Below are positions 39,555 to 63,400 of a DNA stretch of 64,000 bases, piece by piece. The notes under the pieces were generated by a model. It had not been told where the DNA came from and did no database searches. It saw nothing but the letters and a program-made list of their open reading frames with translations. Numbering within the stretch: the first letter of the stretch is position 1; the number at the start of each line of letters is the position of its first letter. This DNA comes from Patiriisocius marinistellae (lineage in GTDB: Bacteria; Bacteroidota; Bacteroidia; Flavobacteriales; Flavobacteriaceae): contig NZ_BKCF01000001.1 of the NCBI RefSeq assembly GCF_009014635.1, positions 744,001 to 808,000 of the forward strand. The letters run 5' to 3'. A program made the translations under genes and the position numbers.

Positions 39555-39620
39555 TAAAGTTAAAGGCGAATGATTACTTAATTTAAATTTTTTTAGTGAA
39601 CGGGAGTTTTTTTTAGTGAA
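39555..39620 (-). promoter_or_regulatory. Direct-repeat site A plus promoter, upstream of the dockerin-like gene
   Basis: On the minus strand TTCACTAAAA (39620-39611), N10, TTCACTAAAA (39600-39591), N3, TTTA (39587-39584), N21, TAACTTTA (39562-39555); 19 bp later comes the ATG. Repeats have an exact 20-bp period. The layout matches sites B-E, so I read it as a LytTR-type activator site next to the -33 element. Confidence 0.8.
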
Positions 39621-39630
39621 TAAGCGATGT

Positions 39631-40884
39631 TTATTCAGTATAGGTTATTTCTGCTCCTATTATAGCCATGTCAACAGAGGGTCCATTACTATATTTCACA
39701 TCAAAATAATAGTAGCTATTTGCATCAATAGTTATGTTTGTAGTAGTGGTATCTATAAAAACATCAGGTTGATTACGACTAGGTTGTGTTTGATATACTT
39801 CAATAGGTGTAACCGCATCTAAGAATGATTTTTCACGTAAGCTTATATAAATATTAGACCCACCTTGATTATCTCTCAAATAAAATTTAATTGAAGTTAT
39901 GGTCGCACCTGCTGAGAGTAAGAGTGGTGCTATTAACTCAGATCTTAAAAGTACGCCATCCTCATTATACGCTGCATTTAAAGATGAATTATTATTTACT
40001 ATTTGATATTCAAAAGCAGTAAAAGGAATGTGTAGTGTTTTTTCAATTGGCTCAGGCGGATTATTTAATGCAATAACTATTGCTTGATCCACATAACTTT
40101 TAACTGCGGCTTGAGTTGGGATTTTAGTGTCACTATTTTCTACTGCTATAAACCCACTTGAAAACTCTGAAATCGATGCCCCACTATTTAATTTCATTGT
40201 GCCTGTAAATTCAAATCCTAAATTTTGATTTATTTTAAGCGCATTTATATAGGTGTTGTTTGTAAATGTTCCCTTTTTTGCGATAATAAAATCGTCATTA
40301 TTATTTTCTATTTTATAATGATTGAACGAACTATTTGTACTCAATCCATTTTCTAAACGTATGGAGCTGGAGTCGTTTAAATTGTCTGTTGTAATCAAAA
40401 TACCTGCATTATCAGCGTCGTTTATATGTAATTGTTCTTGTGGATCATCTGTGCCTACTCCCACATTACCTATTTGCTTAATCGCATTATCACCGCTTTT
40501 TACAAATGCAGTATTGAGTGCTGTTATCGCATATGGAACAGCATTAAAAGCAGAAGTTCCTAAATCCACGTAACCATTACCACTATTAACTTCAACTTTA
40601 AGCATATTTGAAACACTCCAATCCACATCACTATAAGTATTAAAATTAGAACCTCCCGAACCTATGTTAAGAACTATTAACCCGTTAGCATTTGTAGTAG
40701 GTGCGTGTGTTTCAATGTATTGAATTCCAGTATTATTATTAATGGAAAAACGCACAAATACTACTTGATTTTCTATTGGGTTTCCATTAGCATCATTAAT
40801 AATAGCTTTATAATTTATAGGTGCCTGAGCAAGACCTGTTAAGATTGCCGATAAAAAAAAGAGTAGTGTGTAGATTGATTTCAA
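39631..40884 (-). CDS. Secreted protein with the shared flavobacterial N-terminal domain (paralogue 1)
   Basis: 417 residues: signal peptide ending ILTGLAQ, then the same N-terminal module found in the 46-52 kb paralogues (INYKAIINDANGNPIENQVVFVRFSI, NANGLIVLNIGSGG, GYVDLGTSAFNAVPYAITALN). A middle part resembles tail-fibre-like repeats (IGNVGVGTDDPQEQLHIND), and the C-terminus is a beta-sandwich of unknown type. Only a TTG can start the frame before the signal peptide (an in-frame stop lies eight codons upstream and no ATG intervenes), so the start is TTG at 40884. No direct-repeat site precedes it. Its stop lies just outside site A of the next gene. Confidence 0.8.
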   Translation of the reverse strand: MKSIYTLLFFLSAILTGLAQAPINYKAIINDANGNPIENQVVFVRFSINNNTGIQYIETHAPTTNANGLIVLNIGSGGSNFNTYSDVDWSVSNMLKVEVNSGNGYVDLGTSAFNAVPYAITALNTAFVKSGDNAIKQIGNVGVGTDDPQEQLHINDADNAGILITTDNLNDSSSIRLENGLSTNSSFNHYKIENNNDDFIIAKKGTFTNNTYINALKINQNLGFEFTGTMKLNSGASISEFSSGFIAVENSDTKIPTQAAVKSYVDQAIVIALNNPPEPIEKTLHIPFTAFEYQIVNNNSSLNAAYNEDGVLLRSELIAPLLLSAGATITSIKFYLRDNQGGSNIYISLREKSFLDAVTPIEVYQTQPSRNQPDVFIDTTTTNITIDANSYYYFDVKYSNGPSVDMAIIGAEITYTE

Positions 40885-41131
40885 AATGGATGATTTTAAT
40901 TGTTATACACCCATTTGTAATTATATTTTAAAAGAGGTTAACACCTAGGATTAAAAAATGTATTTTAATATTTCTTAAATGTGCAAAACATTGAAAATCT
41001 AATAATTAAATAGGATAATTTTTTTGGATGGTAAACTTTTTTTATAATTTTAAAATCCTGTTAACCTTACATATTCCTCTTTAGACTAATGGGTTTTCAC
41101 CATTAAAGCCTCAAATTATCAACCTTTATTT

Positions 41132-44100
41132 ATGAAAGTATTTTACTTATTAGTATTATCGTTCTTATTTTCTTTTAATACAGTCCAAGCCCAAGAAACA
41201 TGGCAAGAGGCTACTCATATTGCAGATTCATTATCCATGGAGTTTGAGCATAAAAAGTCTCTTAACTTCAGATTAAAGGCTCTTGAAATTGCAAATAAAA
41301 AACAGTCCGATACATTGGGTTACCTTACCGCGTTAAAAAATATTACTGAGACCGAAATGTTGTTCAATGATAGAGAAACACGTAAAAAAACTTATAAAGA
41401 ATTAGTTTTAAATGTAAAGGAACTTGAAAACTATAACCCAAAACCAGAGCAAATTTATCAAGTATATCGTAGGGTTTCTATAAGTGCTTATGATTATTTG
41501 CGAGACATGGAGGAAGCTGATAAATATGTCAAGAAATCAATAGATGCGCATCTTAATAGTGATCAAATTGATTCTATATTATTATTAAAAAACTTGCACT
41601 CTAGGGGTATGGTTTTAAGAGAAAAGGGAGACTTAAATAAAGCATTAAAAATATTTGATGAGGGAATAAAATTTTTTGAGAGTCAAAAAAAGAGAGATAG
41701 TAATACTTTAGCAACTATTTATTTTGATATGGCATATACCTACCATCCTAATTTTTTAAACATCCCAAAGAAACGATATGAATATTTAAAAAAAGCCGAA
41801 TCCGTTTTTAGAACTTTAAAAAACCCTAATCAGGATAACTATCAAACTACACTTTCACAGCTATCTGACTATGAAAGGTTTTATGGTAATTATGAAGTTT
41901 CACTGGGTTATCTAAATAAAGGATATCAACTATACCTCGATAATAAAGACTCTTCTCAAACTTTAAAATCTACTATTTTTAATTTAAGAAAAGAATTAGA
42001 TTATTATCATTATAAAATTATGTTATATGCAAAACTTGAACAAGAAAAAGAATTGCTTGAGTCTATAAAAAAAATAGAAAGTTTTGCTATAAATACAAAC
42101 CTAGATCCACTTGAATATGAATATTATGTACTATCCTATCTAAAAACTGGTAGATATTATAAAAAAACAGAAAACTATAAACAGGCAATGTTTTATTTTA
42201 ACAAAGGTTTAAAAACAGCAGATAATGCCACAGAAACAGATTATCATCCAGATTTTTATGTAGAAATAGTAGAGCTGAAACTCAACCAAAATAAAATTAA
42301 GGAAGCAAAAATATTATTAGATAATGATTCTTTGTTTATAGGGATGGTTCCTTCTGTAAAATCTCACTATTTAAAAAATAAGCTACGAGTTGCGGTTGAG
42401 TTGAGAGATTTTGATACCGCAAAAGAATATATAAATAACACGCTTTACAGTATAAGCGACAAGTCTTCTCTCATTGATATTGATAATTTAAACATTGTAG
42501 ATTATAAACCAGGACACCTGTTAATTGATATTACAATATTACGTGATTTAGCCTTTTTATTAGAAGCTAATGAAACTCCATGGGATAACGTACCTGAAAA
42601 ATTATATAAAATGGCTTTAATCCATTTTGATGCTAATTTTATTCAAGGCGAATTAAACCCAGGGGCTAAAAGATATTTAGATATGATTACTAATGGGTAC
42701 TTAAAATATCAAGAAAATGATGATCAAGAATCACTCTTATACTTTCTTGAAAAATACGAAAGTATAACGTCCCGATATTTATACTCTAAATTTAACCAAA
42801 GCCGTTATGTAAAACAAGATGAGCAAACAAATAAACTTTTAGAGCAAGAAAAACAGCTTCGGTCAAATATTACTTATTTAAAAAGAAAACAAGCAAGAAA
42901 CGATACAGATGAAGTTGCGCAGCAACTTTTTGAACTTCAATCTTCACTTGATGAAGTTGAAATAACATTATCAAGTCAAAATAAACAAATAGAAAGTGTT
43001 TTAGAGAAACAATTCTTATTCAAAAACCTTGATACAGAAAATAAAAACTATGTAAAATTTATAGAAGCAAAAAATAATTTATATAGATTTTTAATTGATG
43101 ATACAGGTATTCATTTTAAAAAATTAGGTAATTATGATGAGATTGCTAAGGATGTAATTCAATTTATTACATCAATTAAAAATCCTTCAAATAAAGAAGG
43201 TTACTCTAGTAAAATAGAAAATAAGCTTTTTGTAGATTTATTAGCAGATATCCCGTTTAAAGAGAAGACCTATATTGTTCCAGATAAGGTGCTTAATTAT
43301 TTGCCTTTTGAGTTACTTCAAAAAAACAACGTGAGCTTAATTGAAACCAACACTATTTCATACGCAATAGGCCTATCATATTTGCAAAGCGAAACTTCAA
43401 GTAAAAGAACAACAAATAACGTTGCATTATTTGCTCCTTCATATTCAAGATTTGTTCCTACTGAAACACAATTAGTAGTGCGTGGAGAGGCATATGATTT
43501 AAGTGGTGCAAAAGCGGAGGTTGCCGAAATTTCAAAAATTATTCCGTCAACAGTTTACATAGATGATGCAGCATCAAAAAAAGCATTTCAAAATTTAAGC
43601 AATAATGTTTCTGTTATTCATTTGAGTATGCATTCATTTCTTAATGATAAAGATCCAGAGTTGAGTAGTCTTGTTTTCTCTGATAACGAAGTTGAAAATG
43701 AACTTTATATTTCAGAATTATACGGGTTAAATCTTAATGCAAATCTTGCAGTTTTGAGTGCGTGTAATACTGGCGTTGGTGGTTATGATAACGGTGATGG
43801 TGTAGTCTCTATGTCACGAGCTTTTAAATATGCGGGTGTACCTGCAACGGTAAGTAGTTTGTGGAGTGCGCCAGATCTTTCTACAAAAAAAATAATGGTC
43901 TCATTTTATGAGCATTTAAAAAACGGCGCATCAAAATCAAAAGCGTTACAATTAGCAAAATTAGACTACTTAAAAAATACAAATGAACGAGAGTTAAAAC
44001 ATCCTTATTATTGGGCAGGCTTTGTTTTACATGGAGATGACAGTCCCATACTATTAGAAAACGAATTTTATAAAACGTTATGGTTCTGGGTAGTTATCGC

Positions 44101-44161
44101 TATATTATTATTAATTATTGTTTTAATATTGAGAAAAAGGACTAAAAATCAATTGAGCTGA
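41132..44161 (+). CDS. TPR-CHAT protein: secreted or membrane-anchored caspase-like protease
   Basis: 1009 residues: a signal peptide ending NTVQAQ, TPR-like helical repeats over about 25-500, a coiled-coil segment near 565-640 (QTNKLLEQEKQLRSNITYLK), a CHAT domain over about 690-980, and one TM helix near 983-1003 followed by a basic tail. The CHAT catalytic dyad is intact: His834 in LSMHSFLND and Cys878 in LSACNTGVGGYDNGDGV. The remaining CHAT signatures (GVPATVSSLWSAPD, HPYYWAGFVLHGD) are present. The topology puts the protease outside the cytoplasm with a C-terminal anchor. It converges on a TPR membrane protein and an ECF sigma gene, overlapping the former by 13 bp at the 3' ends. Confidence 0.92.
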   Translation: MKVFYLLVLSFLFSFNTVQAQETWQEATHIADSLSMEFEHKKSLNFRLKALEIANKKQSDTLGYLTALKNITETEMLFNDRETRKKTYKELVLNVKELENYNPKPEQIYQVYRRVSISAYDYLRDMEEADKYVKKSIDAHLNSDQIDSILLLKNLHSRGMVLREKGDLNKALKIFDEGIKFFESQKKRDSNTLATIYFDMAYTYHPNFLNIPKKRYEYLKKAESVFRTLKNPNQDNYQTTLSQLSDYERFYGNYEVSLGYLNKGYQLYLDNKDSSQTLKSTIFNLRKELDYYHYKIMLYAKLEQEKELLESIKKIESFAINTNLDPLEYEYYVLSYLKTGRYYKKTENYKQAMFYFNKGLKTADNATETDYHPDFYVEIVELKLNQNKIKEAKILLDNDSLFIGMVPSVKSHYLKNKLRVAVELRDFDTAKEYINNTLYSISDKSSLIDIDNLNIVDYKPGHLLIDITILRDLAFLLEANETPWDNVPEKLYKMALIHFDANFIQGELNPGAKRYLDMITNGYLKYQENDDQESLLYFLEKYESITSRYLYSKFNQSRYVKQDEQTNKLLEQEKQLRSNITYLKRKQARNDTDEVAQQLFELQSSLDEVEITLSSQNKQIESVLEKQFLFKNLDTENKNYVKFIEAKNNLYRFLIDDTGIHFKKLGNYDEIAKDVIQFITSIKNPSNKEGYSSKIENKLFVDLLADIPFKEKTYIVPDKVLNYLPFELLQKNNVSLIETNTISYAIGLSYLQSETSSKRTTNNVALFAPSYSRFVPTETQLVVRGEAYDLSGAKAEVAEISKIIPSTVYIDDAASKKAFQNLSNNVSVIHLSMHSFLNDKDPELSSLVFSDNEVENELYISELYGLNLNANLAVLSACNTGVGGYDNGDGVVSMSRAFKYAGVPATVSSLWSAPDLSTKKIMVSFYEHLKNGASKSKALQLAKLDYLKNTNERELKHPYYWAGFVLHGDDSPILLENEFYKTLWFWVVIAILLLIIVLILRKRTKNQLS

Positions 44162-44853
44162 TTTTCCAAAGAGGTTCTTTTATCTTTTTTATACATAGCA
44201 TCCACGGTTTTCAATTTTTTTAAACTTTGTAAGGCACTTTTTTTATCTTCACTCTTTAAATGAGCTAATGCACTGTACCAATGTGTCTGTGGTAGATAAC
44301 GTGTATTTGTATCCTCAATAGATTTTAATATAATGAGTGCTTTATCTGTTGCACCAGTATTTAAATGGCTCATAGCAAGATAAAATTTGATGTCTGGATT
44401 GTCTTGTAGCTCAAGCATTTTTTGAAATTCAGAAATTGCCTTCTCATAATTGCCATTCTCATACTCCATAAACGCTAAATTTCCAGGTATATCACGCACA
44501 ACAGGTTGAAGCGTATTAGGGTAGGGTTCAAAATTTGAAGCATATAAACTTTGAGCATTGTTTGAGTTTTGAAACACATAAAAACTTCCTATACCAATTA
44601 ACACAGCAATCGTCGCCGCAATTTGCCAGATTTTAAAAGGATTTTTTTTAGGAGTACGTTCATTTTCAATTGCTTGTAAACGTTTTTTTAACTTGTCTTT
44701 TTCTGAAATTTTAATGCTTGAAGCAATTAATTTATATTCATCAACAGCTGCTTTAAAAGTGGCATCTACTTTCATTTTATGTGCTACTTCTTCCATTTCT
44801 ATTTTGGAAAGTTTTTGAGCAACGTAGTGTTGTATTAGTTGTTCTTGTTCCAT
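44149..44853 (-). CDS. Single-pass membrane TPR protein, candidate anti-sigma factor
   Basis: 234 residues: a cytoplasmic N-terminal helical part (1-70), one TM helix near 76-94 (WQIAATIAVLIGIGSFYVF), then a periplasmic part with TPR-like repeats (GNLAFMEYENGNYEKAISEFQKML, KFYLAMSHLNTGATDKALIILK, HWYSALAHLKSEDKKSALQSLK). No canonical ZAS (HxxxCxxC) motif is present. The gene begins 1 bp after the ECF sigma stop, the normal place for a cognate anti-sigma factor. N-in/C-out topology with a cytoplasmic helical domain fits such a role. It ends overlapping the CHAT gene. Confidence 0.78.
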   Translation of the reverse strand: MEQEQLIQHYVAQKLSKIEMEEVAHKMKVDATFKAAVDEYKLIASSIKISEKDKLKKRLQAIENERTPKKNPFKIWQIAATIAVLIGIGSFYVFQNSNNAQSLYASNFEPYPNTLQPVVRDIPGNLAFMEYENGNYEKAISEFQKMLELQDNPDIKFYLAMSHLNTGATDKALIILKSIEDTNTRYLPQTHWYSALAHLKSEDKKSALQSLKKLKTVDAMYKKDKRTSLENQLN

Positions 44854-44854
44854 G

Positions 44855-45391
44855 TTACTTAGGGGAGTTTATAAGTTGTCTCAAACCTTTTAGACAGCGA
44901 GATTTATGGCTCTTTACTGTGTTTTCATCTTTATAATGTGTAAGTGCTACAATTTCTTTAATAGTGAGATTTCGGTAATAATACATTTTAAGTATATCTT
45001 GACAACTGGGCGACATATTTTTAAAATTAATTGCTAATTGTTTTTGTTGCTCGCTAGGTGAATTGTCTACTTCAATCTCAAAATCGGCAACTTTTTCGGG
45101 TGCATCTTTTAAAATTACTTTTTTCCGTTTTTTTAGGATGTTATACATTTTATATTTTCCTATTGCAAACAAGTATGTCCTCAACGTGCCATTTTCTATA
45201 ACTAATTGTTTACTAACAAAATTTTGATAGAGTGCAATGGTAGCATCTTGGTACACATCTAGTACTGTGTCCTTATCTAAATTAAATTTAAGCGCATAAT
45301 TAAAAAATGCTTCTTGGTTGTCTTTGTAAACTTCTTCAAAAGCGGTTGGATCTTCATCCCTCAATCTTTGTTGTAACGAAGTGTTTGTCAT
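44855..45391 (-). CDS. ECF-type RNA polymerase sigma factor
   Basis: 178 residues. The sigma-2 region lies at about 12-90 (DPTAFEEVYKDNQEAFFNYAL, VLDVYQDATIALYQNF, LRTYLFAIGKYKMYNIL) and sigma-4 at about 120-172 (MSPSCQDILKMYYYRNLTIKEIVAL, DENTVKSHKSRCLKGLRQLI). It is an ordinary ECF architecture without extra domains. It is followed after 1 bp by a membrane TPR protein and, convergently, by a TPR-CHAT protease. I infer a signalling unit in which the protease or the membrane protein controls the sigma factor. Confidence 0.93.
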   Translation of the reverse strand: MTNTSLQQRLRDEDPTAFEEVYKDNQEAFFNYALKFNLDKDTVLDVYQDATIALYQNFVSKQLVIENGTLRTYLFAIGKYKMYNILKKRKKVILKDAPEKVADFEIEVDNSPSEQQKQLAINFKNMSPSCQDILKMYYYRNLTIKEIVALTHYKDENTVKSHKSRCLKGLRQLINSPK

Positions 45392-45869
45392 TAGTCTATT
45401 GCTTATTTAAAAGATTAACAAGGTAGACAAATTTATTTTTTTTGTTTAGATAGCCGTATAATTTTCAAAATGAAAATTATACGGTCTTTTAAAACTTCAG
45501 ATAATAATATAATAAATTTAATGGTGAAGCACCTCAATATTCAATGAGCTATAGCGGTTTGAAGTGTTTAAAATTTTGGCGAAAGCCGAAATATAATACA
45601 TTCAACTAATTAAATTTCTATAAAATTTTTTGATAATTTTTAAATGGTGTTAGAAAGCAGCATAATTATTTTTCAATTTTATAAATAAAGGTATTATCCT
45701 CACCTTAATTTGTCCACTTCAAAAATGCAAACCTACTGTCGCTATTTTTGTCCAGTTTTCAAAAAAATAATCACGATATATAGATTTATATCCTCATAAA
45801 GATCTAGTATTTATTGATAACTTAGAAGAGTTGTATTTGTTGAAATATAAGGAGACATTAAACATTGTT
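45392..45869. other. Intergenic region without recognisable gene, probably decayed
   Basis: About 480 bp between the sigma gene and the pseudogene. It contains only short ORFs and no clear RNA gene. The part around 45700-45860 has codon-like stretches, but none matches a family I recognise. A hairpin-like ATTTTCAAAATGAAAAT palindrome lies at 45463-45479 (ATAATTTTCAAAATGAAAAT region), about 75 bp upstream of the sigma gene start. Confidence 0.5.
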
Positions 45870-46243: not shown

Positions 46244-46271
46244 ATTATATAATACTTAAATTAAGAGTTTT

Positions 46272-47108: not shown

Positions 47109-47175
47109 TATAATAATTATTTAATGGGTTTAGCTATCTTCATTTTTTTATATTTCAGAAAAGAATAAAATTAAA

Positions 47176-49391: not shown

Positions 49392-49456
49392 TAAATCTAA
49401 ATTGAAAGAAGGGCTTTAAAAATTTTATTTAGTGAATGAATGGTTTATTTAGTGAA
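49392..49456 (-). promoter_or_regulatory. Direct-repeat site B plus promoter, upstream of the Calx-beta/GATase-like paralogue
   Basis: On the minus strand TTCACTAAAT (49456-49447), N10, TTCACTAAAT (49436-49427), N3, ATTT (49423-49420), N20, TAGATTTA (49399-49392), then 20 bp to the ATG. It has the same 20-bp period and 27-bp distance to the -7 box as sites C, D and E. Confidence 0.82.
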
Positions 49457-49486: not shown

Positions 49487-50302
49487 TTAACGAATCTGCT
49501 CAATTTCAAAAGTATTTCTATTAGGTAAGGATTGTGCATAACCGTTTTCTGATCCAAAAATTTCAATATAATCACCAGGGATTAAATGCACAATGGATGA
49601 TACTTTAACTGTCATCTTAAAACGATCATCTTCTCTAAACTCTACTTCGCTTTTTTTTAAAAAACTCCCATTTTTGTAAATATATAGTGAAAGATTAGTT
49701 TCATCTATATTACCATTTACAAAGCGTATTGATGCATCTGCAGAAATTTTATAGTAACCATCAACAGTACTTGTAAACCTACTCGTTAAAGGGTCGTAGT
49801 TGTTAGTGAGGTCAAAAACCTCAGTTCCATAAGTTATTTTGTTGGGATTTGAACTTGATGAAAAACTAGTTAAATAAGCTTTTGCTAATGCAAATCCAGC
49901 AATATCCACTGGAGGATTTTTTACTTTTTCTGCTAGCTTTGCATAAGGAACTGTTCCAAACCCTGAAGTTCCTAGATCTACTAATCCATCTCCAGTATCT
50001 ACTTGTACATTTAAAAAATGATCACCTATTCCCCAATCGATAGTTAAAAAGTTACCATTATTTACTATTCCTTCGCCAATGTCCACTTTAGCTATTCCAT
50101 TAATGTCGGTAGTTAGATTATGAGTTTCTTGATATACATTAGTAATTGGTCCCTGAAATATTTGAAATTGAATAGTTATTGCTTGGCTCGCAAAAATATC
50201 TCCATTGCTATCTTTAATAAGTGCCTTATAGTTAATGCCATTTTGAGCAATGCTTGTAGTTACAATTAGTAACGCAAAAATTAAATTTAAAACTAATTTC
50301 AT
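49487..50302 (-). CDS. Secreted protein: shared N-terminal domain + C1q-like C-terminal domain (paralogue 5)
   Basis: 271 residues: signal peptide ending VTTSIAQ, shared module (NGINYKALIKDSNGDIFASQ, INGIAKVDIGEGIVNNGNF, LVDLGTSGFGTVPYAKLAEKV), then a C1q-like beta-sandwich (RFTSTVDGYYKISADASI, LSLYIYKNGSFLKKS, SSIVHLIPGDYIEIFGSEN, final strand FEIEQIR). The overall plan matches paralogue 3 (278 aa), from which it differs mainly in loops. It begins 13 bp after the S74 paralogue stop, so both belong to the operon driven by site C. Confidence 0.83.
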   Translation of the reverse strand: MKLVLNLIFALLIVTTSIAQNGINYKALIKDSNGDIFASQAITIQFQIFQGPITNVYQETHNLTTDINGIAKVDIGEGIVNNGNFLTIDWGIGDHFLNVQVDTGDGLVDLGTSGFGTVPYAKLAEKVKNPPVDIAGFALAKAYLTSFSSSSNPNKITYGTEVFDLTNNYDPLTSRFTSTVDGYYKISADASIRFVNGNIDETNLSLYIYKNGSFLKKSEVEFREDDRFKMTVKVSSIVHLIPGDYIEIFGSENGYAQSLPNRNTFEIEQIR

Positions 50303-52415: not shown

Positions 52416-52480
52416 TAAATCTATGAATGATACTAGCCGTTTTCAAAAATTTTTAGTTAAACAAAGATTTTTTTAGTGAA
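52416..52480 (-). promoter_or_regulatory. Direct-repeat site C plus promoter, upstream of the S74 fibre paralogue
   Basis: On the minus strand TTCACTAAAA (52480-52471), N10, TTAACTAAAA (52460-52451), N3, TTTG (52447-52444), N20, TAGATTTA (52423-52416), then 21 bp to the ATG. It has the clearest -33/-7 pair of the five sites; the second repeat has one mismatch. Confidence 0.85.
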
Positions 52481-54561: not shown

Positions 54562-57198
54562 ATGAATATACGCGAAATAAATGCGATGCGCGGTCCTAAT
54601 TACTGGTCTGTACGTCGTCACAAATTAATTGTTATGGTACTTGATCTTGAAAAGATGGAAGAATTTCCCTCTAACAAAATTAAGGGATTTTCTAAACGAT
54701 TGAAAAACATGTTTCCATCTATGTATAGTCATCGTTGTAGCGTAGGAGAACCTGGTGGCTTTTTTCAACGAGTTGAAGAAGGTACTTGGATGGGACATAT
54801 TATTGAGCACATTGCGCTTGAAATTCAAACGCTTGCAGGAATGGATACTGGCTTTGGTAGAACAAGAGACTACGGGGAAGTAGGCGTTTATAATGTGGTT
54901 TTTAGTTATATGGAAGAAAGTGTGGGGCGTTATGCCGCCGAAGCTTCGGTTAAGATATGCGAAGCATTAATCGCAGCAAAGGATTATGATCTTGACCCAG
55001 ATATTCAAAAAATGCGTGAGCTTAGAGAATCTTCTAGATTGGGACCTAGTACAGGGAGTATTGTGGAAGAAGCTGAAAGTAGAGGGATTCCGTGGATTAG
55101 ATTAAATAAATATTCATTATGCCAACTAGGATATGGTGCAAATCAAAAAAGAATACAAGCCACAGTAACTTCAGAAACTTCAAGTATAGGAGTAGAACTT
55201 GCATGTGATAAAGAAGATACAAAATACTTGTTAGAACAGGCTGAGGTTGAAGTGCCTCGTGGAGATATAATCTCACGAGAAAGTAGTCTTGAAGATGCTT
55301 GTAGATATGTAGGTTATCCATTAGTTATTAAACCTATAGATGGAAATCATGGTCGCGGTATTACGGTAGATATTCAAAATTATGAAGGAGCTGTAGTAGC
55401 CTTCCATGCTGCAAAAGAAGTATCAAGAAGAGTTATAGTAGAAAAATATATTACAGGAGAAGATTACAGGCTCTTGGTAATTAATAATGTATTAGTAGCT
55501 GGTGCAATAAGAACTCCAGCCCATGTTGTAGGAGATGGAAAACAAACAGTTGAAAGTTTAATTGATGAGGTTAATAGAGACCCAAGACGCGGCTATGGGC
55601 ATGAAAATGTATTAACACAAATTACGGTTAATGACTTAACGAGAACAATAATAAAGGATGCTGGGAAAACATTAGACTCTGTTCTAGAAGAAGGTGAAAA
55701 ATTAATTTTGAAAGATACGGCAAACCTTAGTACTGGAGGAACGGCAGAAGATATTACAGATATTATTCATCCTGCAAACGTATCAATGGCAGAACGTATT
55801 TCAAAAATTATTGATCTTGATATTTGTGGTATTGATATTATGACCACAGATATTTCTAAACCATTATCAGAAACTGGTGGTGCAATCTTAGAAGTTAATG
55901 CGGGGCCAGGTTTTAGAATGCATCTTGCTCCTACAAGTGGGTTGCCAAGAAATGTAGCAGCTCCAGTTATCGATAAACTATTCCCTAAGCAGGGTGATAC
56001 TGGACGTATTCCTATTACTGCTATCACAGGAACAAATGGAAAAACAACTACTAGTCGTTTAATTGCCCATATGGCAAAAATGAAAGGTTACCGAGTGGGA
56101 TATACAACTAGTGATGGGGTTTATATTCAAAATAGATTATTAATGACAGGTGACTGTACAGGACCATCAAGCGCAGAGTTTGTACTCAAAGATCCTACAG
56201 TTAATTTTGCAGTTTTAGAATGTGCAAGAGGTGGACTATTGAGAGCAGGTTTGGGCTTTAAAAATTGTGACGTTGCTGTTGTAACTAACGTATCTGCAGA
56301 TCATTTAGGGCTTAAGGGAATTCATACCGTAGAGCAATTAGCTCGTGTAAAAGGAGTAATACCAGAAACAGTATTGCCAGATGGTTATGCCATTTTGAAT
56401 GCAGATGATGACCTAGTGTATGAAATGCGCAGAAGCCTTGATTGTAAGGTAGCACTGTTCTCAATGGACGAAGAAAATTCTCGTGTAAAAGCGTTGCAAC
56501 GCAAAGGAGGTATTACAGCCATTTATGAAAATGGGTTTGTTACTATTTGTAAAGGAGAATGGAAAATGAGAGTAATGAAAGCGGTTAATATTCCACTTAC
56601 ATACGGTGGCAAAGCAGATTTTATGATTCAAAATGTGCTTGCGGCAGTTTTAGCGGCACATGTTCAAGGCATTCGTATTGAAGATATGAAAGTAGCTTTA
56701 GAAACATTCATTCCTTCGGCCTCTCAAACCCCTGGTAGGTTGAACCTCTTCAAGTTTGAAAATTTCAGTATTTTACTGGATTATGCACACAATCCTGCTG
56801 GGATGAGAGCTTTAAAACAATTTTCAGATAATTTAGAGGCATCACATAAGGTGTGCATTATTGCTGGAATAGGGGATAGACGTGTGGAGGATAATAACTT
56901 GATAGGAAGTATAGCTGCAGAAATGAGTGACGAAATAATCATTCGTCAAGATAAACGACTACGAGGCAAAACCGAAGAAGAGCTTATTAAAATGCTCAAT
57001 GATGGAATTAAGATGCAAAACCCAAAAATGAAAACTACTGTTATTCCAAGTGAGAAAGAAGCAATAACACATGCTGTCAACAATGCAAAAAAAGATTCAC
57101 TCATAATTTTATGTAGCGATGTAGTGCCAGATGCGCTAGAGTTAGTACAAAAATTTAAAGCACAAGAAGCGAGTGGTAAAAAGATTTTTGCGCAGTAG
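54562..57198 (+). CDS. cphA: Cyanophycin synthetase
   Basis: 878 residues, family length ~870-900. An N-terminal domain with RGPNYWSVRRHKLIVMVLDL and HIIEHIALEIQTLAGMD, an ATP-grasp domain over about 220-475 (YPLVIKPIDGNHGRGITVDI, LEVNAGPGFRMHLAPTSG), and a Mur-ligase-like domain from about 485 to the end (P-loop ITGTNGKTTTSRLIAHMA near 488, LDYAHNPAGMRALK). It builds multi-L-arginyl-poly-L-aspartate by alternate addition of Asp and Arg at ATP cost, a nitrogen/carbon store. With cyanophycinase and isoaspartyl peptidase next to it, synthesis and breakdown are complete. Confidence 0.96.
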   Translation: MNIREINAMRGPNYWSVRRHKLIVMVLDLEKMEEFPSNKIKGFSKRLKNMFPSMYSHRCSVGEPGGFFQRVEEGTWMGHIIEHIALEIQTLAGMDTGFGRTRDYGEVGVYNVVFSYMEESVGRYAAEASVKICEALIAAKDYDLDPDIQKMRELRESSRLGPSTGSIVEEAESRGIPWIRLNKYSLCQLGYGANQKRIQATVTSETSSIGVELACDKEDTKYLLEQAEVEVPRGDIISRESSLEDACRYVGYPLVIKPIDGNHGRGITVDIQNYEGAVVAFHAAKEVSRRVIVEKYITGEDYRLLVINNVLVAGAIRTPAHVVGDGKQTVESLIDEVNRDPRRGYGHENVLTQITVNDLTRTIIKDAGKTLDSVLEEGEKLILKDTANLSTGGTAEDITDIIHPANVSMAERISKIIDLDICGIDIMTTDISKPLSETGGAILEVNAGPGFRMHLAPTSGLPRNVAAPVIDKLFPKQGDTGRIPITAITGTNGKTTTSRLIAHMAKMKGYRVGYTTSDGVYIQNRLLMTGDCTGPSSAEFVLKDPTVNFAVLECARGGLLRAGLGFKNCDVAVVTNVSADHLGLKGIHTVEQLARVKGVIPETVLPDGYAILNADDDLVYEMRRSLDCKVALFSMDEENSRVKALQRKGGITAIYENGFVTICKGEWKMRVMKAVNIPLTYGGKADFMIQNVLAAVLAAHVQGIRIEDMKVALETFIPSASQTPGRLNLFKFENFSILLDYAHNPAGMRALKQFSDNLEASHKVCIIAGIGDRRVEDNNLIGSIAAEMSDEIIIRQDKRLRGKTEEELIKMLNDGIKMQNPKMKTTVIPSEKEAITHAVNNAKKDSLIILCSDVVPDALELVQKFKAQEASGKKIFAQ

Positions 57199-57224
57199 AT
57201 TTTCTTCGGAAATATTAAACATTA

Positions 57225-57257
57225 AAAAGACCGTTATTTTATGAATAACGGTCTTTT
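57225..57257 (+). terminator. Intrinsic terminator after cphA
   Basis: Perfect 14-bp stem AAAAGACCGTTATT (57225-57238) with AATAACGGTCTTTT (57244-57257), 5-nt loop. It lies 26 bp after the stop, just past a CTTCGGAAAT copy. Confidence 0.9.
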
Positions 57258-57351
57258 AATTTAAAGTGGAATTTCTAAAATTCATCAAAATTTTACATTC
57301 TATTTACATTGATTTATAACGTGTAGTAAAATGATTTAACTTATTTCGACA

Positions 57352-57924
57352 TTAATCGTCATAAGGAACATTTGTAAATCTTCCTTGCGTTACTTCAAAT
57401 GTTTGGCCAGAATCTTCATCCGTTGCAGTGAAGCTAAACTCTCCCGAAATTACTTTATTAGTCTTATCAATAAATGTAACTTTTACAATAGCATTATCTG
57501 TGTTTTCGGTTGTGGCATTTATCTCATCATTTTCTTGATAAGTGCCGAGGGCAAATTGCTCTTCAAGATTTGAGTCATTAATTCCTTGATGTACTTTTCC
57601 ATTTACAAGTGCGTCAAAATTAGAGTCACCCATTGCAATACCTATGGCAGTGGGGAGACCTCCATTTAAATCTGCGCCCCCTATGGCAAAGACATAGGCT
57701 TGATTTCCATTTATAGGAAGTAATGAGAGTCTTGCCTCTACAGCGCCCTCCACAACAAGTGAGGAAAAATCATTGCCATTTACCTTTGCTGTAATTTGTG
57801 CAATGGAACCATCTCCACCTCCGCCACCTATATCCTCAATAATATCTTCTGCATCATCGCTACCGCAAGAATTTAACGCTAAAGTTAGAAAAGAGAACAG
57901 GAGTATTTTTTTAAATACAGTCAT
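57352..57924 (-). CDS. Surface lipoprotein of unknown function
   Basis: 190 residues. The lipobox LALNSC gives a mature N-terminal Cys20. The residues after it, GSDDAEDIIEDIGGGGG, are acidic and Gly-rich, as in Bacteroidota lipoproteins exported to the outer face. The rest is a beta-rich domain (ITAKVNGNDFSSLVVEGAV, INATTENTDNAIVKVTFID, KVISGEFSFTATDEDSG) resembling the small DUF6252-type calycin-like lipoproteins of flavobacteria. No catalytic motif. It is followed and preceded by unrelated genes, so it may be monocistronic. Confidence 0.8.
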   Translation of the reverse strand: MTVFKKILLFSFLTLALNSCGSDDAEDIIEDIGGGGGDGSIAQITAKVNGNDFSSLVVEGAVEARLSLLPINGNQAYVFAIGGADLNGGLPTAIGIAMGDSNFDALVNGKVHQGINDSNLEEQFALGTYQENDEINATTENTDNAIVKVTFIDKTNKVISGEFSFTATDEDSGQTFEVTQGRFTNVPYDD

Positions 57925-57986
57925 AATTTTTAGATTTTTAAAAGTGAGTCTATTTTAATTGAGTAAACTATAGGGGAGTTTATTAT

Positions 57987-58802
57987 TCAAATTTTATTAT
58001 TTCCTTTAATTTTAAATAATTTTTTAAGGTCGTCTTTTGATGCGTTTTTTTTGATGTTTTTTAGTTTACTAGTATCTTGTTTTATTCGGCGATTTGAGGC
58101 GTTTTTTAAAGGTTTAAAACTTCCACCAGTTTTTTTATTTGCTATTTCACGAAAATAGGCGGTATTAAAAATGGGTCTTTCTTTATATTCTTCATCTAAA
58201 AGTTGAAACGCTTTTTGATATCGTTCTTGTTTTTCTAAAATCCAAGCTAATAAATATATGGCAGCGATGTTTTCCTGTTGAGTCATTTCTTTATAAATAC
58301 GAATACTTTCTCGCACATCGATTTCGGCTTTGCTATAATTTTCTAAGTAAAAATTTGCTCTTCCTCTTTCTAAATACGTGCCGTGATTGGGGTGCATAGC
58401 AACTAATTTGTCAAGTTCAACAATTTTAGCTTCTGTTATATAGGCTTTCCCTTGGTTAAATTGAAGCTCTCTAATTTCTTCTATTTTATTAAAATATATA
58501 TCACAACTGTTCACCATTTCATAAGTGAATGAAACCATTAATTCCATCCTTTTTTGTTGTCCTTTTTGGTATCTAATGTTTGCATTTTCTTCTACAATTT
58601 CGGCATCAATAAGGGCTGCATAATTGGGCAATGTGTTTTGAAAACAAGTTTCAATAGCCTTATTGGGGTTTTTTTGTGTTTCAAATTGTTGTGGTAAACA
58701 ATTACAAATTTCGGCTTTAAAACTAGTTGTGTACGACTGTGCATTTGCAATACCTAAAGCAATTGAGAGTGTTATTGAAAGTAAGCTGTTTTTTTTATTC
58801 AT
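57987..58802 (-). CDS. Secreted TPR-like protein of unknown function
   Basis: 271 residues from the ATG at 58802 (MNKKNSLLSITLSIALGIANAQ, a clean signal peptide). The frame extends to 58853 with weaker starts that would overlap the gene before it. After an N-terminal region with CNCLPQQFETQKNPNKAIETC (three Cys) comes a TPR-like segment (GTYLERGRANFYLENYSKAEIDVRESIRIY, IAAIYLLAWILEKQERYQKAFQLL) and a Lys-rich tail. It starts 4 bp after the stop of the preceding small secreted protein and probably forms a two-gene operon with it. Confidence 0.78.
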   Translation of the reverse strand: MNKKNSLLSITLSIALGIANAQSYTTSFKAEICNCLPQQFETQKNPNKAIETCFQNTLPNYAALIDAEIVEENANIRYQKGQQKRMELMVSFTYEMVNSCDIYFNKIEEIRELQFNQGKAYITEAKIVELDKLVAMHPNHGTYLERGRANFYLENYSKAEIDVRESIRIYKEMTQQENIAAIYLLAWILEKQERYQKAFQLLDEEYKERPIFNTAYFREIANKKTGGSFKPLKNASNRRIKQDTSKLKNIKKNASKDDLKKLFKIKGNNKI

Positions 58803-58806
58803 ATTT

Positions 58807-59235
58807 TTACTCTTCTTCATCGGTGCCAATAAAATATGTTTTTGATGTTGCAAGACAGTAACGTAATGCCTTTTTAGCTTTGTTTAAATTAAGTGTGGCT
58901 TTCCCTTTTCGCATAATATTGCCTTTGCCACTTCCCATATCTTCAACAACAGTGGGTAAAACTTGCCATAAGCTATCAATATCTTTTTGAGCATTTGCGA
59001 GTAGTTCGTCTTCTAACTCTGGTGGAATTTCAACACCCTTTTGGGATAGGCTATCATAAACATATATTTTATGATATAACTGAAATGTATTATCTACAAA
59101 CTGATCTGCACTTTTTATTTTTGAATTTTTTTTTGGTGGGTTTATTCTTTCTTGACAAAAAATTTGTGATGTAAAGCTAGAAAGTAACAACAAACAACTG
59201 CAGATGTAGATAATAAAGTAATTAGATTTTTTCAT
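58807..59235 (-). CDS. Small secreted protein of unknown function
   Basis: 142 residues from the ATG at 59235 (a TTG one codon upstream is ignored). A signal peptide of ~30 residues ends SQIFCQ, possibly with a Cys at the cleavage site. The mature part is helical with charged runs (KIKSADQFVDNTFQLYHK, DELLANAQKDIDSLWQVLP, NLNKAKKALRYCLATSK) and an acidic end (TDEEE). I do not recognise a family. It is first in a probable operon with the TPR protein and is divergent from the sensor kinase gene. Confidence 0.72.
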   Translation of the reverse strand: MKKSNYFIIYICSCLLLLSSFTSQIFCQERINPPKKNSKIKSADQFVDNTFQLYHKIYVYDSLSQKGVEIPPELEDELLANAQKDIDSLWQVLPTVVEDMGSGKGNIMRKGKATLNLNKAKKALRYCLATSKTYFIGTDEEE

Positions 59236-59400
59236 CAAATTTTTTTTGCGAGGTTACTGTTAAAGATAAATTTTACATTATTACTTAGCTAGCTGTAATT
59301 TGTAACCGTCGTTAAGTAAAGTTTAAGTGTTGATTGTTAGGGTTTAATCGTAAATAATTTTATACTTTTAAAAAACAACCGCAAAAAACTATTTTCATTG

Positions 59401-61482
59401 ATGAAATGTAAACTACTCTATTTCATTTTATTCTTTTGGGTATATAGCTCAGCCCAACAAAAATTAATAGATTCTCTATCAGAACAATTAAAATTATATC
59501 CTGATAATAGCATAGAGAAATTGACTTTACTTAACGATTTGTGCTATTACTATAATAATATACAACCTAAGGAGGGACTTTTATTTTGTGATAAGGCAAT
59601 TAACTTGGCAAAAAAACTAGAGTCTAAAGAGCAACTTGCATTAGCATATAAATTTAAAGGTGTTAATTATTATGCATTAGCAAATACAGCAGCAGCATTG
59701 AAAATGTATGATTCAGCAATTGAGATTCAAAAAACTTTTAATGATGAAAAAGCGCTTGCTAAGACAATATATAATAAGGGATTAGTTTATTTTAATGCTT
59801 CAGATTATAAAGAATCAAACCATAATTATCGAGAGGCTTATATAATTTTTGAAAAGGAAAAAGACTCTTTTTTAATGGCGAAAATGCTAAATAGCATAGC
59901 TATAAATCAAATGTACCAAGTTAAATATCCTGAAGCTATTAAAACTTTTAATGAGGCAGCAATCATTTATGAAAACTTAAACAAGCAAAACGATTTTGAG
60001 TATGGGAGTATCCAAGCTAATCTGGGGCTTCTGTATAAACGTTTAGATAAATTTGATCAGGCAATTGCTCAACAAGAAAAGGCACTACTAATATATCAAA
60101 GGCAAGGAAACCTCTACGGTCAAGCAAACGCCTTATCAAATTTAGGAAATTGTTACGATAGTAAAGGAAATTCTCTAAAGGCTATTGAATATTACAAAGA
60201 GTCAAATAAATTAAATGAGCGCATAGGTAATACATTATTAGAAGCTAACAACCATACAAATACTGGAATAGCTTATATATCTTTAAAAAGGTTTGATGAT
60301 GCTATTGAAAATCTAGAGCAGGCAATATCAAATTATAAAAAAATAGGTAATACCACAAACTTGGCAATTGCAAATGAAAACCTAGGAACTTGCTATCGTG
60401 AAAAGTATAAAGTCAATCCACAATCATCTTTTGTAAAAAAGGCTACAACCTATTTTAATAATGCATTAGTGGAAGCTAAAAGTGTTAATAATATTCTTGT
60501 ACAACAACAAGCCCTAGAGGGTCTTTCATGGACAAGTTCAAAATTAAATGACTTTAAAAAAGCTTTTCAACAAAAAGAGCGTGCTACAGTTTTAAAAGAT
60601 AGTTTTCTATCGCTTGAAAAAATGGAGGCATTTGCTAAGATGGAAGCTCAGTTTACGTTTGAAAAAAAAGAAGCGCTTTTAAAAGCAGCATATAGTAAAG
60701 AACAAGCACTAGCTAAAGCTCAAATGCAACGGCAAAAAATTATTAAAAATGGAACAATTGTAGGAGGCTTGTCCTTGTCTTTTTTAAGTATAATTGGATT
60801 TGTTTTATATAAAAAGAGGCAAGAAGCGGTTTTTAAAACGAAAGAGGCTCAATTTAGCACTGAGGTGGCCCAAACAGAATTGAAAGCATTAAGAGCACAA
60901 ATAAATCCACATTTTATATTCAATTCACTAAATTCAATTGGCGATTATATTATAAAAAATGATATACATTCCGCTAGCGACTATCTTTCAAAATTTGCCA
61001 AATTGATAAGGGAGATTTTGCAAAATTCAGAAAAAAAGAATGTGCTGCTTTCTGAGGATATTTCAGTATTGAAGATGTATTTAGATATTGAAAATAAACG
61101 ATTTGATAGAAAATTTTTATACACCTTTGACATAAGCGATACCATTGATGCAAATAATGTTTTAGTTCCTCCTCTTATCATTCAGCCTTTTATAGAAAAT
61201 AGTATAAAACACGGTTTAGCAAAAAACGAAAGTGATGGACACATTAAAATTACTATTGATAAAAAAGGCGATGCATTACATTATATTGTAGATGATAATG
61301 GTGTAGGCAGAAACGTAACCGCAGTAAAGTCTAATAATAGAACATCTTTAGGGATAAAAATTACTGAAAATAGAATCAACATCCTCAATAGAACCAATAA
61401 TATAAAGGGTTCGGTAAAAATAATGGATAAAGAAAAAGGTGTAAGAGTTGAAGTGTACCTCCCCTTATTATATGCATCATAA
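59401..61482 (+). CDS. TPR-containing sensor histidine kinase (LytS/YehU type)
   Basis: 693 residues from the ATG at 59401. Signal peptide near 1-19 (FFWVYSSAQ), TPR repeats over about 25-400 (NALSNLGNCYDSKGNSLKAIEYYKESN and similar), a TM helix near 452-472 (GTIVGGLSLSFLSIIGFVLY), a short coiled coil, then the His_kinase domain with phospho-acceptor His504 in AQINPHFIFNSLNSIGDYI. The HATPase part shows LVPPLIIQPFIENSIKHGLAK and VDDNGVGRN. Such kinases pair with LytTR regulators; the partner gene starts 10 bp downstream. Confidence 0.95.
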   Translation: MKCKLLYFILFFWVYSSAQQKLIDSLSEQLKLYPDNSIEKLTLLNDLCYYYNNIQPKEGLLFCDKAINLAKKLESKEQLALAYKFKGVNYYALANTAAALKMYDSAIEIQKTFNDEKALAKTIYNKGLVYFNASDYKESNHNYREAYIIFEKEKDSFLMAKMLNSIAINQMYQVKYPEAIKTFNEAAIIYENLNKQNDFEYGSIQANLGLLYKRLDKFDQAIAQQEKALLIYQRQGNLYGQANALSNLGNCYDSKGNSLKAIEYYKESNKLNERIGNTLLEANNHTNTGIAYISLKRFDDAIENLEQAISNYKKIGNTTNLAIANENLGTCYREKYKVNPQSSFVKKATTYFNNALVEAKSVNNILVQQQALEGLSWTSSKLNDFKKAFQQKERATVLKDSFLSLEKMEAFAKMEAQFTFEKKEALLKAAYSKEQALAKAQMQRQKIIKNGTIVGGLSLSFLSIIGFVLYKKRQEAVFKTKEAQFSTEVAQTELKALRAQINPHFIFNSLNSIGDYIIKNDIHSASDYLSKFAKLIREILQNSEKKNVLLSEDISVLKMYLDIENKRFDRKFLYTFDISDTIDANNVLVPPLIIQPFIENSIKHGLAKNESDGHIKITIDKKGDALHYIVDDNGVGRNVTAVKSNNRTSLGIKITENRINILNRTNNIKGSVKIMDKEKGVRVEVYLPLLYAS

Positions 61483-61492
61483 TATTTTATAA

Positions 61493-62233
61493 ATGATTAA
61501 AACAATACTTATTGACGATGAGCAGCATTGTATTGACAGATTGTTGTATCACATAAAACGTAGTACTGCAACATTTACTGTAATGGCAACGTGCAGTACA
61601 GTATGGCAAGCTGTTGAAGCTTGCAAACTGCACAAGCCAGACTTAGTGTTTTTAGATATAGAAATACAAGAAAAAACAGGGTTTGATTTTTTAAGGGAGA
61701 TGCCTCAAATTAACTTTCAAGTTATTTTCACAACCGCTTTTGATAATTATTCAATCGAAGCCTTTAAGTTTAGTGCGCTTCATTATTTGTTAAAACCCAT
61801 TGACATTGATGATTTTAATGAAGCTGTGAGGCGCTATCTTGATCGAATAAAGCCTACTAGCCAGCAAATAGATCAAAGATTTAGAGTGTTACTTGATAGC
61901 ATTAATAATAATAATTCAAAATTAACATTGCCCACCGCAACAGGATATGAGTTTGTTGAAATTACCTCAATTAATCGTTGCGAAGCAGATGGAAGTTATA
62001 CTCATATTTTTACTTTAGACAAACAATTTACTGTTTCAAAACCATTAAAGCATTATGAAAATTTGTTAGAAAACCTAAGCTTTTATCGTGTACATAACTC
62101 TCACTTGATTAATTTAAAATATGTTAAGCAGTATACAAAAGGTAACGGAGGCTACCTTACAATGGAGGATGGAACTACTATAAATGTTTCTGCGCGTAGA
62201 AAAGATGGGTTTTTAAATACACTTAACAGTTAG
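61493..62233 (+). CDS. LytTR-family response regulator
   Basis: 246 residues. REC domain with IDDEQHCIDRL (acidic patch) and phospho-acceptor Asp55 in LVFLDIEIQEKTGFDF, the Thr/Ser and Lys positions in FTTAFDNYS and HYLLKPID, and a C-terminal LytTR DNA-binding domain over about 145-245 (INRCEADGSYTHIFTLDK, FYRVHNSHLINLKYVKQYTKGNGGYLTMEDG). It is the cognate partner of the TPR kinase. LytTR proteins bind pairs of 9-10 bp direct repeats about two helical turns apart, which makes it one candidate binder of the 20-bp-period repeats in this window. Confidence 0.95.
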   Translation: MIKTILIDDEQHCIDRLLYHIKRSTATFTVMATCSTVWQAVEACKLHKPDLVFLDIEIQEKTGFDFLREMPQINFQVIFTTAFDNYSIEAFKFSALHYLLKPIDIDDFNEAVRRYLDRIKPTSQQIDQRFRVLLDSINNNNSKLTLPTATGYEFVEITSINRCEADGSYTHIFTLDKQFTVSKPLKHYENLLENLSFYRVHNSHLINLKYVKQYTKGNGGYLTMEDGTTINVSARRKDGFLNTLNS

Positions 62234-62241
62234 TTTTTTAT

Positions 62242-62414
62242 AAAAAAAGACCACGCTCCTCAATTCGTGGCCTTCAATAATGCTATAAATGCTAATTTGT
62301 TTTTCTAAATTAAAACTATCTCAAAATAATAGCGATAGATTCATTTTTTTAAATTAATAACAATAAAAGCAGGTTAAGTTTGGTAGTGGTAATTTGATAC
62401 GTTAGTTGACTTAC
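62242..62414 (-). ncRNA. Candidate small RNA (~170 nt) driven by direct-repeat site D
   Basis: The region between two convergent genes has no ORF above a few codons in the minus direction, yet it is framed by a promoter with regulatory repeats (site D, -7 box ending at 62419) and an intrinsic terminator. The terminator stem GACCACG (62249-62255) with CGTGGCC (62266-62272) has a 10-nt loop and, on the minus strand, is followed by T7. Start and end are inferred, giving about 165-175 nt. The alternative is that the terminator ends a long 3' UTR of the LytTR regulator at 62612. Confidence 0.5.
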
Positions 62415-62418
62415 AATA

Positions 62419-62483
62419 TAAATTTATTTGATTGTAAAAAACCTAACAAATATTTTTAGTGAACAAATGTTTTTTTTAGTGAA
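62419..62483 (-). promoter_or_regulatory. Direct-repeat site D plus promoter, no gene behind it
   Basis: On the minus strand TTCACTAAAA (62483-62474), N10, TTCACTAAAA (62463-62454), N3, TTTG (62450-62447), N20, TAAATTTA (62426-62419). Spacing is identical to site C. It lies in the gap between convergent genes, 129 bp past the stop of the LytTR regulator at 62612. Confidence 0.8.
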
Positions 62484-62611
62484 ACTTTGAAATTGAGTGG
62501 CATTAAGTTTTCTTCGGAAATTTTAATGGATTACAATCATTTTGTTGTTATACATTTCGGCTTAAAAACAAAGACTATTTGAATAGCTTAATTATTTAAA
62601 ATTAATAGAAA

Positions 62612-63310
62612 TTAATTAAGAGTTGGTGTTTCTGCCATTCTAGCACTGAGTTTCTTTTTTCTTGAATACCCCAAAGGAACCTCAACGGAGTCCACTTGGA
62701 CAAAATCTGTAGCCACTGCTACAACTTTTCTAAGGTTTATCCAGTAGGAACGATGACATTGAAAAAAATGTGCTTGATTTAAGGCTTCAGAAATACATTT
62801 TAAGGTGTGTGGCACCAAGTATTCTTTTGCTGATGTAACTATATAACAATAGTTATCAAAAGCTTTTAAATATTGAATACTGGATTGATTGATGGTATAT
62901 TTTTTTCCTTCAGTTTTAAAGCTGAGTTTCTCTTCGTCTTGGTTAATAGTATGCCAGGCTAGTGTTATATTACTTAAAAGTCCTGCCTCTGTAAATGGTT
63001 TAACTATATAACCTAATGGGTTTGTTTCTTTAACGCGGGATAATGTAACTGGATCTGTTTGAGAGGTTAAAAATAGATATGGAATCTGCTCATTACTTAA
63101 ATAATGAGCTATATCAACCCCATCTTTATTACTTTGTAGTTGAATATCTAATAAGACTAATGTGGGTTGTGTTTTAGAAATTTGGGCGACTGCCTCTTCA
63201 TATTCATCACTACTGCCAGCTATGGCTATATTATTTTTTTTCAAAGCCATTTTTAGGCTCATTACTATTAGCGGTTCATCCTCTACGATATAGACGTTTA
63301 GTTTGTTCAA
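62612..63310 (-). CDS. LytTR-family response regulator with direct-repeat site at its own promoter
   Basis: 232 residues. REC domain with VYIVEDEPLIVMSL and phospho-acceptor Asp55 in LVLLDIQLQSNKDG, FLTSQTDP, and YIVKPFTEAG, then a LytTR domain over about 135-228 (QYLKAFDNYCYIVTSAK, FQCHRSYWINLRKVVAVATDF, VPLGYSRKKKL). The frame offers only TTG at 63310 in front of the REC domain (an in-frame stop lies six codons upstream), so the start is TTG. It follows the HisKA_2 kinase by 96 bp, and direct-repeat site E is in that gap, so autoregulation is likely. This is the best candidate for the regulator of sites A-E. Confidence 0.94.
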   Translation of the reverse strand: MNKLNVYIVEDEPLIVMSLKMALKKNNIAIAGSSDEYEEAVAQISKTQPTLVLLDIQLQSNKDGVDIAHYLSNEQIPYLFLTSQTDPVTLSRVKETNPLGYIVKPFTEAGLLSNITLAWHTINQDEEKLSFKTEGKKYTINQSSIQYLKAFDNYCYIVTSAKEYLVPHTLKCISEALNQAHFFQCHRSYWINLRKVVAVATDFVQVDSVEVPLGYSRKKKLSARMAETPTLN

Positions 63311-63335
63311 GAAGTTTTTTGATTGTCAGTTACAT

Positions 63336-63400
63336 ACAATCTACAAATAACAAATGGACTTTTATCCTTTTTTTAGTGAACGCATACTTTTTTTAGTGAA
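63336..63400 (-). promoter_or_regulatory. Direct-repeat site E plus promoter, upstream of the LytTR regulator
   Basis: On the minus strand TTCACTAAAA (63400-63391), N10, TTCACTAAAA (63380-63371), then 27 bp to TAGATTGT (63343-63336), with no good -33 box (GGAT at 63367-63364). The TTG start follows 25 bp later. A missing -33 box next to perfect repeats suggests an activator-dependent promoter. Confidence 0.75.

Follow-up and report, generated by a model that had tools for sequence, protein, structure and literature searches.

The DNA considered here is a 64,000-nt stretch (the window) of contig NZ_BKCF01000001.1 of Patiriisocius marinistellae, a genome of 3,338,299 bases in 30 contigs. Near its end lie the gene for a LytTR response regulator and, directly upstream of it, the 3' part of the gene for a sensor kinase with TPR and HisKA_2 domains. 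Five direct repeats, sites A to E, are found on the same strand: site E precedes the regulator gene, site D follows it, and sites A, B and C precede operons for proteins that resemble surface fibres or carry a sorting domain of the type IX secretion system (T9SS). An earlier note, made from the letters of this DNA, took the repeats to be the promoter sites of an undescribed LytTR regulon.

All five repeats have the form TTCACTAAAA-N10-TTCACTAAAA, with a period of 20 bp, and all lie on the minus strand (Table 1). They had been described as identically built, which is true of sites A, D and E; site C differs from the pattern by one mismatch and site B by two. By chance, 0.09 such repeats would be expected in the window, and five were not reached in any of 100 shuffled versions. 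Across the whole genome, six sites were found with up to two mismatches and two more with three, the reversed pattern used as a control likewise giving two matches at up to three mismatches. The sixth site (C1:165325-165354) is located 641 kb away, upstream of a gene encoding a T9SS surface protein. The motif is rare and placed at promoters, rather than being spread over the genome without relation to start codons.

Table 1. Sites, promoter elements, genes and predicted transcript of the putative regulon within the window.
Feature	Position	Strand	Details
Site A, direct repeat, period 20	39591..39620	-	exact match
Site B, direct repeat	49427..49456	-	2 mismatches
Site C, direct repeat	52451..52480	-	1 mismatch
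Site D, direct repeat directly behind regulator gene	62454..62483	-	exact match
Site E, direct repeat between kinase and regulator genes	63371..63400	-	exact match
-7 box of site A, TAACTTTA	39555..39562	-	28 bp past repeat
-7 box of site B, TAGATTTA	49392..49399	-	27 bp past repeat
-7 box of site C, TAGATTTA	52416..52423	-	27 bp past repeat
-7 box of site D, TAAATTTA	62419..62426	-	27 bp past repeat
-7 box of site E, TAGATTGT	63336..63343	-	27 bp past repeat
LytTR response regulator, 232 aa, TTG start	62612..63310	-	Response_reg + LytTR; matches in 47/51 loci
TPR/HisKA_2 sensor kinase gene, 3' part	63407..64000	-	HisKA_2, HATPase_c; continues beyond window end
Target A, first gene, 284 aa, secreted by inspection	38681..39535	-	relatives in 4/51 loci (tblastn)
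Target A, second gene, T9SS-sorted protein, 798 aa	36263..38659	-	Por_Secre_tail
Target B, first gene, fibre-like, 731 aa	47176..49371	-	MAT_N 39.0 bits, below cut-off; no Pfam family
Target B, second gene, fibre-like, 278 aa	46272..47108	-	MAT_N 42.3 bits, below cut-off; no Pfam family
Target C, first gene, S74/YadA-head fibre, 693 aa	50316..52397	-	Peptidase_S74, YadA_head over cut-off; MAT_N 37.0 bits, below
Target C, second gene, C1q-like fibre, 271 aa	49487..50302	-	C1q 20.4 bits (cut-off 23.7), MAT_N 27.5 bits; both below
Predicted noncoding transcript of site D, ~172 nt	62243..62414	-	ends estimated from -7 box and terminator
Terminator hairpin, loop AATTGAGGAG	62249..62272	-	

Each repeat is followed at a fixed distance by a -7 box, 27 bp after the second half-site or 28 bp at site A, as the earlier note had observed. 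This geometry extends to the relatives: of 91 sites defined by their repeats, 84 are followed by TAnnTT at a distance of 27 or 28 bp, and at any other distance the count is 0–5. With the box set at -12 to -5 (PMC9723704), the half-sites fall at about -70 to -60 and -49 to -40. The repeats had also been said to abut a -33 box, a claim that did not hold: no such box is enriched among the sites of this family, and TTG occurs 14–26 bp before the -7 box 23 times over the 84 sites, against some 20 expected (an estimate from an assumed base composition). The half-site has a 9-nt core, and the cores are separated by 11 nt at period 20 or 12 nt at period 21, inside the range published for LytTR sites (repeats of 9–11 nt, 11–13 nt apart; PMC4847170); with a repeat length of 10 nt, the separation at period 20 becomes 10 nt, just outside that range.

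The 62612-63310 protein carries a receiver (Response_reg, 60.5 bits) and a LytTR domain (60.7 bits), both over cut-off. The whole kinase, read from stretch L149, has 642 residues with TPRs, HisKA_2 and HATPase domains, and, on our reading of its sequence, appears to possess an N-terminal signal and one membrane helix. Related loci were drawn from named genomes and 80 were kept, L039–L092 serving most scans. In tblastn searches of 51 loci, the kinase was matched in 46 and the regulator in 47. By one rule applied to 48 loci, including the window, a site stands directly beside the regulator gene in 43; under the same rule, sites lie upstream of that gene in 25 of 47 testable loci, just downstream in 38/48 and anywhere in the locus in 45/48. 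A scan of 54 loci for the repeat only gave 70 pairs of period 21 (at least 17 of 20 matches) versus one in reversed sequence, and six pairs of period 20, again versus one.

The earlier note had proposed a comparison with regulator presence, and this comparison favours its reading. The regulator was called at E <= 1e-50 in 20 of 299 genomes of the family; period-21 sites with at most one mismatch occur in 14 of these 20 genomes versus 18 of the 279 without it, and exact ones in 8/20 versus 1/279. Three further genomes of the 20 have period-20 sites, in a search that ran at two mismatches and is matched by 49 of the 299 genomes, many surely by chance. Among the places listed with 0–1 mismatch in 36 regulator-bearing named genomes, 45 of 54 lie at the regulator locus, a figure read from contig positions; at two mismatches the counts are near those of the control.

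The spacing of the half-sites follows the regulator clade. Period 20 is found at the regulators of the window, Patiriisocius marinus (L039), an uncultured Ulvibacter (L082), Ulvibacter litoralis (L151) and a Nonlabens metagenome-assembled genome (L070), and these five form one clade (support 99/95) in a tree of 46 regulators. The genome taken, from identical coordinates, as Ulvibacter litoralis has two regulators: three period-20 sites surround one of them, and the sites next to the other, like those of an unlinked divergent pair, have period 21. With this natural shift from 21 to 20 bp in one clade, the reading of half-site spacing by LytTR proteins could be tested directly. On another contig of Ulvibacter litoralis, which bears neither regulator, a divergent pair of sites, almost alike in their spacers, stands before two fibre-like genes of opposite orientation (L152:3716-4100).

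The putative targets are surface proteins of several kinds. The dockerin-like and Calx-beta/GATase-like names given earlier to the first genes of targets A and B were not recovered from Pfam or NCBIfam (38681-39535 matches no family in either), and the T9SS assignment of the second gene of target A was; at target C, S74 stands for the first gene and C1q remains below threshold for the second. The curated NCBIfam cut-off for MAT_N, the N-terminal model of mosaic adhesive trimer (MAT) fibres, is 60 bits. A single-sequence fold of the 49487-50302 product was discarded (mean pLDDT, the predicted local distance difference test, of 40), and searches of PDB sequences with two of the targets gave nothing informative. 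The target of the sixth site, of 1240 residues, has GBD_T9SS_assoc repeats and a T9SS sorting domain. In each of the two same-genus genomes drawn, a relative of it (61% and 49% identity) follows a site at a place not linked to the regulator. Elsewhere, 20 listed first genes under sites were scanned for domains in two sets of ten. In the first set, S74 was found in four proteins, YadA_head in three, C1q in one and sub-threshold MAT_N in three, and some had none of these; the second contained four T9SS tails, others with LRR, receptor-L, TSP3 or GBD, and three proteins without a Pfam family. In five Aequorivita units the first gene encodes an apparent small membrane protein of 105 residues, not an adhesin. 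Most of the targets examined are secreted fibres or T9SS adhesins, which differ between genera. The window's DNA polymerase I, peptidase S51 relative and cyanophycin-synthetase-like gene recur in 18, 22 and 23 of the 51 loci, respectively, which places the switch in an old gene neighbourhood where the adhesin genes change. As this predicted switch carries different adhesins from genus to genus, it marks a place of surface-protein exchange under fixed control.

The rarity of the motif and its placement at promoters, the site beside the regulator, the co-occurrence across 299 genomes and the clade-linked spacing uphold the LytTR regulon, which is, as judged from sequence, real and widely conserved. 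With a probability of about 0.87, the repeats are the binding sites of the 62612-63310 regulator, acting as an activator. The regulator would pair with the TPR/HisKA_2 kinase encoded just upstream, a signal presumably reaching it through phosphorylation, and the activated form would bind both half-sites as a dimer directly upstream of promoters with a -7 box and without a recognisable -33 box, to which it would recruit RNA polymerase. It would thereby turn on its own gene via site E, the fibre and T9SS adhesin operons A, B and C together with the unlinked sixth target, and a short terminated noncoding RNA via site D.

Several observations weigh against this interpretation. In five of the 43 loci with a site beside the regulator gene, the -7 box is missing at the expected distance, and the rule that identified these loci was applied without a shuffled control; the sites next to related regulators are of common descent, which makes the counts non-independent. 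Three of the 48 loci, all from Flavobacterium and with a regulator of about 40% identity, have no site at all, and three of the 20 regulator-bearing genomes (G012, G045, G079) yielded none in the period-20 and period-21 scans. A PDB sequence search with the regulator gave matches covering the receiver and no solved LytTR domain for the LytTR part. The Aequorivita contig L053 has one site of each spacing and was for this reason omitted from the tree of 46 regulators; an earlier tree, with L053 labelled as period 20 and L070 unlabelled, required two label changes.

The RNA arm is the least certain part of the regulon reading. Behind site D there is no open reading frame of at least 80 residues starting within 230 bp, and this site probably drives a short terminated noncoding RNA. 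The small RNA of the earlier note finds support in similar units in eight relatives, more weakly than the rest of the regulon. These units are 58–66 nt long with two hairpins in five Winogradskyella-type loci, 190 nt in two Aequorivita loci and about 59 nt in L082, where the loop core TTGAGGAG of the window's unit stands on a different stem and a 100-residue GTG frame starting inside the hairpin was not counted. L058 appears to have a similar unit. A quite possible, if not favoured, explanation for site D, compatible with the regulon as a whole, is that there is no functional RNA and that promoter, leader and terminator were left over after the deletion of an adhesin gene. The site-D transcript contains a stretch like the leader of one Aequorivita adhesin mRNA (AACTTAACCTGC) and a seven-codon reading frame where the gene would start, operon ends bear similar terminators, and covariation in the short RNAs is near nil. 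The fold of the five Winogradskyella-type RNAs has 19 pairs, three of them changed on both sides, with a covariation term of +0.16, which from five sequences gives no net covariation support. Against a mere remnant, however, the short unit recurs in those five loci with two similar hairpins, and a different stem retains the loop core TTGAGGAG within the window's genus. No Rfam match was found in window positions 38000-64000 up to E = 1, and a covariance model (R1) built from the five RNAs recovered, in 16 genomes, mostly terminators already known, plus weak hits. The short units may be considered candidates for RNA control in Bacteroidota. A second possible RNA, with an outer stem seemingly showing paired changes, was noticed in Aequorivita (L040:3280-3400, L043:11090-11240, L051:9410-9530); it ends in the hairpin CGCTTTTGAGGAGGAGCG and may belong to the converging gene.

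It is improbable that the regulator binds the sites and mainly represses, or that the output depends on other factors. The direction of regulation cannot be read from sequence alone, but the repeats are placed ahead of the core promoter, the position at which known LytTR activators bind (PMC6193735, PMC4227749), and the lack of -33 box enrichment counts against repression; activation is preferred because of this site geometry and the missing box. Still less probable is binding by another transcription factor or by the neighbouring LytTR system (59398-62233), a TPR-LytS-type kinase and a LytTR regulator that converge on site D. The regulator of this system (61493-62233) is a LytTR protein as well, encoded by a gene that ends beside the site-D unit; among the 51 loci, however, it is matched in L155 alone (33% identity) and its kinase weakly in six, versus 47 and 46 for the HisKA_2 pair. 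The spacing, moreover, tracks the HisKA_2-linked regulator, which implicates the HisKA_2/LytTR pair. The second pair was therefore rejected as the site binder, not being conserved along with the sites, and the claim that either LytTR regulator might serve is narrowed to the one linked to HisKA_2. A core promoter element or a dispersed DNA repeat is a scarcely credible reading of the motif. The fixed distance to the -7 box would suit it, but there are only six genomic copies, which rules out a dispersed repeat, the copies are associated with one regulator gene and the half-sites are about two helical turns apart.

Many of the predicted regulon transcripts, coding and noncoding, would end in terminators with a purine-rich loop that is kept on a variable stem. 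Such loops were found in 29 of 38 regulon-linked terminators versus 15 of 104 others, a comparison that is not phylogenetically independent, eight of the 15 being one Aequorivita hairpin from mostly the same loci, and for which the finder missed some imperfect stems. Stem-matched GTAGGG hairpins, with up to three mismatches, number 1–4 per genome in 12 of 13 genomes. GTAGGGA-loop terminators found elsewhere in Winogradskyella-type genomes (L159-L170) follow a fibre-like gene in 7/12 cases and other genes or none in 5/12. The pattern GAGGAGN{4,8}TTTTT, aimed at copies of the window RNA loop, did no better than its control, and GTAGGGAN{4,10}CTTT alone matched three genomes 31 times versus 32 in the reversed control, being informative only with a matching stem.

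In the Winogradskyella-type clade, the loop UGUAGGGAG is complementary to UUCUCUACA, a motif conserved in the 5' leaders of adhesin mRNAs, and this complementarity is suggestive only. Thirteen of 15 leaders were used for the pairing analysis, L050 and L076 being left out because no GTAGGG loop was found there; 11 of the 13 form 9–10 contiguous pairs at one place, 27–34 nt from the predicted start, and L059 has one matching double change. It is conceivable, and on balance doubtful, that the regulon has its own post-transcriptional arm, in which a stand-alone RNA of about 60 nt would pair through its loop with the leaders of adhesin mRNAs and so tune them, perhaps in competition with the 3' loop that each mRNA itself carries. 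This reading is weakened because 11 leaders, not 13, pair at the conserved place and the stand-alone RNA was seen in only 5 of 12 loci. Also unfavourable to it, six of 13 leaders beat shuffled leaders at p<=0.05, with reversed loops doing so in 2/13, L059 among them; the L059 loop belongs to an operon terminator; the motif is not found in the leaders at window sites A, B or C and occurs in one of five unlinked GTAGGG-terminated fibre operons; and the five of 12 extra hairpins mentioned above follow no fibre gene. In an unlinked fibre operon (L168:71-371), the leader elements AGCTATTAAT and CTCTACA were seen, with no ACTAAA half-site in the 300 bp examined. Many Winogradskyella-type adhesin units (L054, L055, L056, L065, L067, L083) share a conserved AGCTATTAATCAG-like sequence where their transcripts are predicted to start.

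The proposed regulator resembles LytTR response regulators such as AgrA and YpdB in combining a receiver with a LytTR domain and in having two direct half-sites upstream of the promoter; it differs from them in its HisKA_2 kinase with TPRs, the Bacteroidota -7 box and the fibre and T9SS adhesin targets. The csRNAs (cia-dependent small RNAs) of CiaR are short terminated RNAs under the regulator's direct-repeat sites, whereas here the regulator family and the phylum are unrelated, and the window region has no Rfam match. LytTR Regulatory Systems (LRS), including LRS-like Bacteroides operons, also have direct repeats beside the promoter of the regulator operon, with autoregulation predicted (PMC6193735), as is predicted here. 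The LRS regulator is paired with a membrane inhibitor protein, unlike the present one, for which the partner gene encodes a HisKA_2 histidine kinase. Targets B and C partly match the N-terminal model of Bdellovibrio MAT fibres, and S74 or other tips occur (PMC10769870), although all MAT_N scores are below the cut-off and the phylum is different. Searches of the open literature on LytTR in Bacteroidetes or Flavobacteria, HisKA_2, adhesins, T9SS, small RNA and the half-site string found, among the papers listed, none on this regulon, so that, within the open papers searched, it may still be called undescribed. For a marine bacterial family in which those papers describe no LytTR regulon, the analysis predicts a regulator, a binding site, a promoter and a set of surface adhesion genes as targets.

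Two further features of this genome were noted. Beyond the kinase gene (L149:6486-7907), there is a fibre-like gene with a QVGIGTT motif, encoding 473 residues with no Pfam family, at which no site was detected. The region that separates operons A and B (41132-45391) holds a TPR-CHAT protease-like gene, toward which a TPR gene and a sigma-factor-like gene converge.

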